A stretch of 64,000 bases of DNA from Candidatus Hydrogenedentota bacterium. GTDB taxonomy: Bacteria; Hydrogenedentota; Hydrogenedentia; Hydrogenedentales; SLHB01. The stretch is from NCBI GenBank assembly GCA_029552745.1, contig JAKPDK010000070.1:468813-532812 (forward strand), in the 5' to 3' direction. Positions 10,077-11,809 of this stretch are shown in pieces. The position numbers and the translations under genes are program-made. Positions within the stretch are counted from its first letter, which is position 1. Each line of letters begins with the position of its first letter. The notes below the pieces were generated by a model. It was not told the DNA's origin. It was given only the letters and a program-made list of their open reading frames with translations, and ran no database searches.

Positions 10077-11633
10077 TCATCCAACCACATTACTTTCTTT
10101 GCTCATTATAGGCTTTTCTCCCCATAACAGAAAACTCAGGGCATCTGTTAGCGGAAGGAGTGAACGGCGGTCCAGCGCACAAATGGGTAATGCCTGAAAA
10201 CGCGCACATAACCCCGGCAGGTCATTCCGATCGATTTTGTCTGTCTTATTTAAGATGTTTATGCAGGATTTGTCTTGCAGACCGAGTTGAGCGAGCATAT
10301 CACGAACGAGTTGGTATTGTTCTTCGATGTGTTTACTTGAAGCGTCCAAGACGTGAACCAAGACATCGGCTTCATGTAGCTCTTCCAATGTGGCACGAAA
10401 CGCGTCTAAAAGGTCTTCCGGAAGATTTCGAATGAACCCCACCGTGTCCGTTACGATAGCTTCTCGTTCGTGAGGGAAACGTAGCCTTCTGGATACGGGA
10501 TCCAATGTAGCAAATAAAGCATCTTGAACGGATACATTGCTTCCAGTGAGCTGGTTCACGATAGTGGATTTTCCCACATTGGTATAACCAACCACAGAGA
10601 TCGTTGGAATGTTTGCCTCAACACGAACCTGCCGACGAAGGCGTCGTCGTTCCGTCAGCTTATTTAATTGTCTCTCCAGTAGGGCAATCCGATCCTTTAC
10701 ACGTCTTTTGTCTATTTCCAATTTTGTTTCACCAGGGCCTCTTCCTCCGATGCCTCCTGTAAGCCGCGAGAACGCTATGGAACGTTGTTTGGCGCCTAAA
10801 CGCGGCAACATATAGCGAAGTTGAGCAAGTTCGACTTGAAGCATTCCTTCGCGTGAGACAGCGTGCTGGGCAAAAATATCCAGAATTATCAAGGAACGGT
10901 CGAGAATCTTCATATTAGAAATTGAAGACAGACTGGCCACTTGTGCTGGCGAAAGATTCATATCAAAAACCAGGGCCTCAGCATCGGACTGCATTGCATC
11001 GATTAAGGTTTCTTTGAATCGCCCTTCACCCATAACAAATCGAGGATCCGGTGGGCGTCGTTGCAAAATCTTGCCAAGCACGTGCATTCCCGCACTTTGA
11101 GCAAGGTCTTCGAGCTCTTGAATAGAATCTTCAGCAAGATTTCTTGGTTTCTCCGAAACATGAACGAGAATAGCCCTTGTACGTTTGTCGCCCGGGCGCT
11201 GTGTAGGAACTTGGCTTGCGAAAGCTTTTTCGATGTCGTCAACAAGGTCAAAAAAGTCTGGTTTCAGGTCTTGAACAGACTGCGGGTTCGATATTTCCCA
11301 AGACCTGCCATTGCCATTTGTTGGAATAAGATGGGCGATGTGCACTTGTCCAGCTTGACCCTTTTCTGTGACCTCGATAGCAGCGACTAAATCGAGCCGA
11401 AGAAGAGCCAAGTCGGTAAGGTCTTCGCGTGTCAGGGGTTCCCGACCCAGATGCGTATGGACCAGCCTGAGTCCACATAATCGACTCTGTGCTCGCCTGT
11501 AGTCAGAAAGGTCCGGCAAGAACAAAGACCGAGCATCACCCACCAGTAGGAATTCGATGTGACCCCCGTCTATCGACAAGCACACCGATCTGGCGTCGAA
11601 TCGCGTGGGATATTTCGGCCAGCAAACGCGCAA
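10077..11633 (-). CDS. hflX: GTPase HflX (5' end out of frame, see adjoining entry)
   Basis: Ribosome-binding GTPase of the HflX family, which rescues or splits stalled ribosomes. The HflX domain precedes a glycine-rich linker (GGIGGRGPGETKLE), and the G domain carries G1 GYTNVGKST, G3 DTVGF and G4 NKTD. The open frame starts at a TTG (11633), but its first 23 or so residues look spurious. Homology resumes at GHIEFLLVGD, while the expected preceding sequence lies in another frame up to about 11739. Joining them by removing one G from the G5 run at 11563-11567 gives a long-form HflX of about 553 residues. Either a sequencing error or a genuine frameshift is possible. Confidence 0.9.
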   Translation of the reverse strand: MRVCWPKYPTRFDARSVCLSIDGGHIEFLLVGDARSLFLPDLSDYRRAQSRLCGLRLVHTHLGREPLTREDLTDLALLRLDLVAAIEVTEKGQAGQVHIAHLIPTNGNGRSWEISNPQSVQDLKPDFFDLVDDIEKAFASQVPTQRPGDKRTRAILVHVSEKPRNLAEDSIQELEDLAQSAGMHVLGKILQRRPPDPRFVMGEGRFKETLIDAMQSDAEALVFDMNLSPAQVASLSSISNMKILDRSLIILDIFAQHAVSREGMLQVELAQLRYMLPRLGAKQRSIAFSRLTGGIGGRGPGETKLEIDKRRVKDRIALLERQLNKLTERRRLRRQVRVEANIPTISVVGYTNVGKSTIVNQLTGSNVSVQDALFATLDPVSRRLRFPHEREAIVTDTVGFIRNLPEDLLDAFRATLEELHEADVLVHVLDASSKHIEEQYQLVRDMLAQLGLQDKSCINILNKTDKIDRNDLPGLCARFQALPICALDRRSLLPLTDALSFLLWGEKPIMSKESNVVG

Positions 11634-11739
11634 AATCAGGATACACAGGATAATCAGGGTGAAGTCTGCGTTTGGTTACCCGTTCCAAGCGCCTCAAGGG
11701 AAGCGCCTTAAGTCCGTGTGTATTCCCTATGATCTGAAT
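11563..11739 (-). other. hflX: Out-of-frame N-terminal segment of hflX
   Basis: Reading the minus strand in the frame offset from the main hflX frame gives about 59 residues with the hallmarks of the long HflX N-terminus: IIGNTHGLKALPLRRLER, then KRRLHPDYPVYPDFARLLAE, then IGVLVDRRG. It runs straight into the main frame if one G of the five at 11563-11567 is dropped. After the in-frame TGA at 11760-11758 there is no ATG, GTG or TTG before the homologous stretch. An ATT at 11739 lies 10 bases after a GGAGG and is the only start that fits; the next in-frame TTG, at 11697, would lose the IIGNTHGLK part. Confidence 0.8.
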
Positions 11740-11809
11740 CTGATCACCGCCTCCAAATCATACATTTTAGTAAACGGCACTCTAAGGAAGAGTTAATTTG
11801 ATTTCCAGT

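Follow-up and report, generated by a model that had tools for sequence, protein, structure and literature searches.

We examined a 64,000-nucleotide stretch of DNA (the window), which is part of a 583-kb contig in the 4.36-Mb genome of a Candidatus Hydrogenedentota bacterium, assembled in 188 contigs. The window carries a gene for a long-form HflX, the features of which are listed in Table 1. Its 5′ neighbor, 70 nt away (12799-11810, minus strand), encodes a 329-aa protein resembling a sugar-phosphate isomerase, and its 3′ neighbor, 16 nt away (10061-9048, minus strand), encodes a repeat-rich TPR-like protein; both are non-translation genes. The same genome also encodes a short HflX paralogue (G000:C25:170906-171805, locus L165) with an ATG available as its start, and both the long and the short HflX are present in many Hydrogenedentota.

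Table 1. Features of the hflX locus, in window coordinates
Feature	Position	Strand	Remark
hflX	11739-10077	minus	reading frame split by a single surplus G
In-frame TGA	11758-11760	minus	upstream limit of the N-terminal frame; read from the sequence
Shine-Dalgarno region GGAGGCGGTGATC	11742-11754	minus	read from the sequence
ATT, inferred start codon of hflX	11737-11739	minus	4 codons before the G of GNTHGLK; no canonical start between the TGA and the block
N-terminal hflX frame, ATT to premature TGA (11538-11536)	11536-11739	minus	67 codons, the first 59 being HflX; alignment to relatives
Out-of-frame upstream extension of the hflX body	11565-11633	minus	residues unlike HflX
GGGGG at the frame break	11563-11567	minus	one G more than in an unbroken frame
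Remainder of hflX, GHIEFLLVGD to stop	10077-11564	minus	GTPase core intact; TIGR03156 and Pfam matches

The body of the protein scored 394.3 bits against the TIGR03156 equivalog model (cutoff, 216.75; window positions 11561-10080) and contained the domains GTP-bdg_N (PF13167), GTP-bdg_M (PF16360), and MMR_HSR1 (PF01926), in this order and all above their cutoffs. These matches indicate that it is a genuine member of the HflX GTPase family. By the same TIGR03156 and Pfam models, it shares this family with the ribosome-splitting HflX GTPases of Escherichia coli and Listeria, but the long-form proteins studied here have an additional N-terminal region of about 185 residues. This region (window positions 11739-11150) matched no Pfam family and no sequence in the PDB. 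Its AlphaFold2 model showed a confident fold (pLDDT 90), and the best structural matches in the PDB were JAMM/MPN proteins: JAMM1 of Pyrococcus furiosus (5lda and 5ld9; probability 0.99, E value 0.003 to 0.005, TM score of about 0.5) and, further, AF2198 (1oi0). A nearly invariant HTH is followed ten residues on by an invariant D, a pattern like the H-x-H-x10-D of JAMM proteins but one residue short. The N-terminal region is thus predicted to adopt a JAMM/MPN-like fold.

An earlier note on this DNA, made from the sequence alone, had claimed that hflX is split by one base, and reading both frames confirmed that the gene is broken by one surplus G in the run at 11563-11567. The N-terminal frame translates as QIIGNTHGLK...IGVLVDRRG and then runs out of frame through SHRIPTGG to its premature stop, while GHIEFLLVGD begins in the next frame at GGT (11564-11562), and this frame stays open as far as the stop that ends at 10077. 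Deleting one G of GGGGG joins the two frames. A TTG at 11633 could be called as the start of the body, giving a 518-aa open reading frame (10077-11633).

The break proved to be private to this sequence. In 207 of the 208 relatives long enough to be compared, none of them congeneric, the N-terminal frame was open across the site, and the sole exception (locus L083) has a masked stretch; 22 of the 207 have G runs of at least 5 nearby with the frame unbroken. For the 55 residues before the break, similarity to relatives was what the rest of the protein would predict (mean residual, +0.012; SD, 0.057), and the approximately 490 codons after it were intact, so that the break, if real, would be very recent. 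An old pseudogene was rejected, since hflX has this single lesion, its N-terminal divergence is normal, and the remaining codons are intact, which agrees with the earlier argument against old decay. A coding-frame scan of 464 kb from this genome (the window and 400 kb from contig C106), which is insensitive less than about 200 nt from a gene end and passed over the hflX break, revealed no other clear frameshift. It returned some twelve switches of frame flanked by coding sequence, which look like overlapping gene pairs, indicating that the assembly is not generally full of frameshifts; a generally error-prone assembly was therefore rejected as an explanation.

Judging from these comparisons, the extra G either arose in sequencing or assembly or is a private mutation of very recent date, and it has no conserved function; of the earlier proposals for the G5 run, an error in the homopolymer, or else a fresh strain-specific mutation, is supported. 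It had also been proposed that a relative with a normal ATG and four Gs would make the split strain-specific; the unbroken frame was found in relatives, and the normal ATG was not. Between error and mutation the evidence is divided. A true loss-of-function or truncating mutation in the lineage is favored by the lack of any other clear frameshift in the scan and by the second, short HflX, but homopolymers are a usual site of error, the scan was blind near gene ends and missed this very break, and the normal rate before the break and the intact codons after it leave only a very recent event; we rate such a mutation slightly below an even chance. If the extra G is real, only an N-terminally truncated HflX would be left, with the short paralogue on contig C25 as a backup. 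Programmed +1 frameshifting on the G5 run, also raised in the earlier note, would likewise unite the frames exactly, as the +1 shift does in prfB. Unlike in prfB, however, the break and the shift site are not conserved, and there is no conserved slippery site with a stop or hungry codon; the unbroken frame in relatives, including those with G runs nearby, leaves programmed slippage without support, and we give it almost no credence.

The start of the gene presented a separate problem. Read on the minus strand from the upstream stop, the N-terminal frame is TGA TTT GGA GGC GGT GAT CAG ATT CAG ATC ATA GGG AAT ACA, which confirmed the earlier observation that no ATG, GTG, or TTG lies between the TGA (11760-11758) and the conserved GNTHGLK block. 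The ATT does stand 10 nt after GGAGG (11754-11750), as had been noted, and a second, overlapping Shine-Dalgarno (SD) match, GGTGATC (11748-11742), also fits the complement of the usual 16S tail (TAAGGAGGTGATC), at an aligned spacing of 7 nt.

To classify start codons across phyla, we anchored all long-form sequences on the G of GNTxGLK and read them back to the in-frame stop. The loci came from Hydrogenedentota, a Desulfobacterota-type phylum (the name given to the phylum of a Syntrophaceae genome), further GTDB genomes (mostly delta-proteobacterial, Deferribacter-like, and Mucispirillum), Clostridia, and Myxococcota; they were partly chosen by profile-score order, and the GTDB and other genome sets may share some genomes. 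ATG, GTG, and TTG were all absent from 36 of 53 Hydrogenedentota loci (11 had one 8 to 40 codons upstream, 5 had one at 2 to 7 codons, and 1 was cut by a contig end), from 58 of 94 Desulfobacterota-type loci (15, 19, and 2, respectively), and from 36 of 63 further GTDB loci (9 and 18, with none cut). Among 29 Clostridia loci, only 4 lacked a canonical codon, 4 had one 8 to 40 codons upstream, and 21 had one, mostly ATG, at 2 to 7 codons. All 29 distinct Myxococcota loci (L276-L305) had TTG at codon −5. The weak start is thus not universal, being TTG in Myxococcota and ATG in most of the sampled Clostridia. In nearly all of the Myxococcota loci the TTG is followed by AAG GAA ATC; a weak start is invariably kept there in place of ATG.

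Altogether, 134 loci had no canonical start from the in-frame stop to the conserved block, and 40 of these have at most 8 codons of room; in some (L264, L338, L339, and L352) ATT or ATC comes right after the stop. The 39 loci with a canonical codon 8 to 40 codons upstream (class C) are less certain. A near-cognate start (ATT, ATC, ATA, CTG, or perhaps ACG) was assigned to 47 of 52 Hydrogenedentota, about 76 of 94 Desulfobacterota-type, and 45 of 63 further GTDB loci. Three loci (L254, L272, and L341) had neither ATG, GTG, or TTG nor ATH or CTG near the start and showed CCA ACG AAA before the block, where the ACG is a possible start codon. An ACG assigned in L133 was rejected as an artifact of the rule, since a CTG at −3 comes next, and the GTG of L130, which overlaps the SD, is uncertain as a start.

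The near-cognate codons were confined to particular positions. ATT, ATC, and ATA together occupied codon −5 in 76% of the Desulfobacterota-type loci and codon −4 in 50% of the Hydrogenedentota (26 of 52), the latter being the site of the ATT in the window, while they made up only 0 to 7% at most neighboring positions other than −2. In the 26 Hydrogenedentota without one of them at −4, codon −3 was CTG (22 loci), ATG (2), or TTG (2) and never another leucine codon, whereas several leucine codons were used freely at −2, which is the signature of a start codon rather than of a residue. Across the groups the near-cognate codon shifts among −3, −4, and −5 before the GN[TLV] block and its letters vary, but it stays one base from ATG.

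Furthermore, SD matches of at least 5 nt preceded the near-cognate codon in 36 of 47 Hydrogenedentota, 36 of 45 further GTDB, and 56 of 76 Desulfobacterota-type loci, compared with 7.5, 7.4, and 13.5 in shuffles, and their spacing in relatives was mostly 5 to 9 nt. Divergence by codon position was flat upstream of the near-cognate codon (0.71, 0.70, and 0.70) and three-periodic from that codon on in the three groups (0.42, 0.26, and 0.63, then 0.33, 0.23, and 0.67). On a tree of 179 leaves, the start changed between near-cognate and canonical at least 17 times, compared with about 56 when labels were shuffled, indicating an old, inherited state that has repeatedly traded places with ATG or TTG.

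We used two other genes as controls. infC, the textbook case of a near-cognate start, begins with ATC, ATA, or ATT in the same Hydrogenedentota genomes and with ATC in the genome of the window. obgE begins with ATG in 28 of 30 Hydrogenedentota and in the genome of the window as well, showing that neither the genomes nor the method create missing ATGs in general.

The missing canonical starts, the SD matches, the codon periodicity, and the sliding near-cognate codon together point to a start codon and not a residue. This sequence evidence requires translation to begin at the near-cognate codon or a few codons from it at most, and the weak start appears to have been kept over long evolutionary times despite changes in its letters and position. 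The suggestion of an ATT start as in infC is therefore strongly supported by the comparison with relatives. By the same comparisons, the frame break and the missing canonical start are two independent features, the first private to this sequence and the second common to most of the relatives sampled in Hydrogenedentota, the Desulfobacterota-type phylum, and Deferribacterota-like lineages. One could instead suppose that the N-terminal block is untranslated, that HflX starts at a downstream ATG, GTG, or TTG, and that the ATT is accidental; TTG codons do occur further on in the N-terminal frame, and the one at 11633 opens the body. Within the N-terminal domain, however, conservation is highest at GNTxGLK, and in all three groups the divergence pattern is that of coding sequence from the near-cognate codon on, making a downstream start very improbable.

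As to why such a start would be kept, IF3 represses or destabilizes initiation at noncanonical starts, by which infC autoregulates, and it represses the GTC start of Streptomyces sigR (PMC5472188). HflX of E. coli splits 70S ribosomes, and reassociation of free 30S subunits is prevented by IF3 (PMC9067457). If selection favors a start codon against which IF3 discriminates, HflX, a 70S-splitting factor, would be made at a low rate; its synthesis would then increase whenever there is too little IF3 for the 30S subunits present, together with that of IF3, whose gene starts with a codon of this type in the same genomes. By analogy with infC and sigR, we infer that discrimination by IF3 keeps HflX production low. 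The best joint explanation, to which we assign a probability of roughly 80%, is a conserved near-cognate hflX start with putative throttling by IF3, combined with a private error or recent mutation at the G5 run. A broader proposal, which we hold at even odds, is that hflX is the second translation-factor gene after infC with a near-cognate start conserved across phyla and that IF3 controls HflX in trans, so that an excess of 30S subunits titrating IF3, or stress impairing it, would induce the two together from their bad start codons.

The main rival accepts the near-cognate start and has it set a constant low expression, with no sensing of IF3. In its favor, near-cognate starts in Staphylococcus aureus reporters gave about 10% of the expression from ATG, with no effect of the medium for cvfC1 (PMC13009471), and the TTG of Myxococcota is also weak, yet treated as canonical with respect to IF3. 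A weak SD could give a constant low level, however, and yet a strong SD is paired with a bad codon, as in infC and sigR, and the bad codon has been retained through changes in letters and position. We regard constant low expression as a tentative alternative, with odds clearly short of even.

Known systems resemble the proposed IF3 control of hflX in part. Like hflX, infC encodes a translation factor and has a near-cognate start that is kept across bacteria downstream of a good SD, but the product of hflX is not IF3, so that control would be a putative cross-regulation, and exceptions with ATG or TTG are more common in hflX. sigR, like hflX, is a gene outside translation initiation with a conserved noncanonical start and an extended SD, and IF3 limits its translation (PMC5472188); sigR, with GTC or GTT, is limited to one genus, whereas hflX has ATH or CTG in several phyla, and of the two genes sigR alone has proven IF3 repression. 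Likewise, pcnB of E. coli (AUU) and cvfC1 (AUU) and ccpN (AUA) of S. aureus combine a near-cognate start with an SD and have low expression (PMC13009471), but unlike that of hflX, their near-cognate starts are known from single genera or families, and they do not encode ribosome-splitting factors. A literature search, with most subscription journals outside its reach, found no paper joining hflX with non-AUG starts.

Gene callers restricted to ATG, GTG, and TTG will mis-start or truncate the long-form HflX in these groups and thereby hide its N-terminal domain; a ribosome-splitting GTPase that carries a metalloprotease-like or binding domain would merit study. To our knowledge, start codons rejected by IF3 are known in very few genes. 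If the reading proposed here is true, hflX would be a second ribosome-related gene with such a start across several phyla, pointing to a circuit that would link the fidelity of initiation with ribosome splitting.
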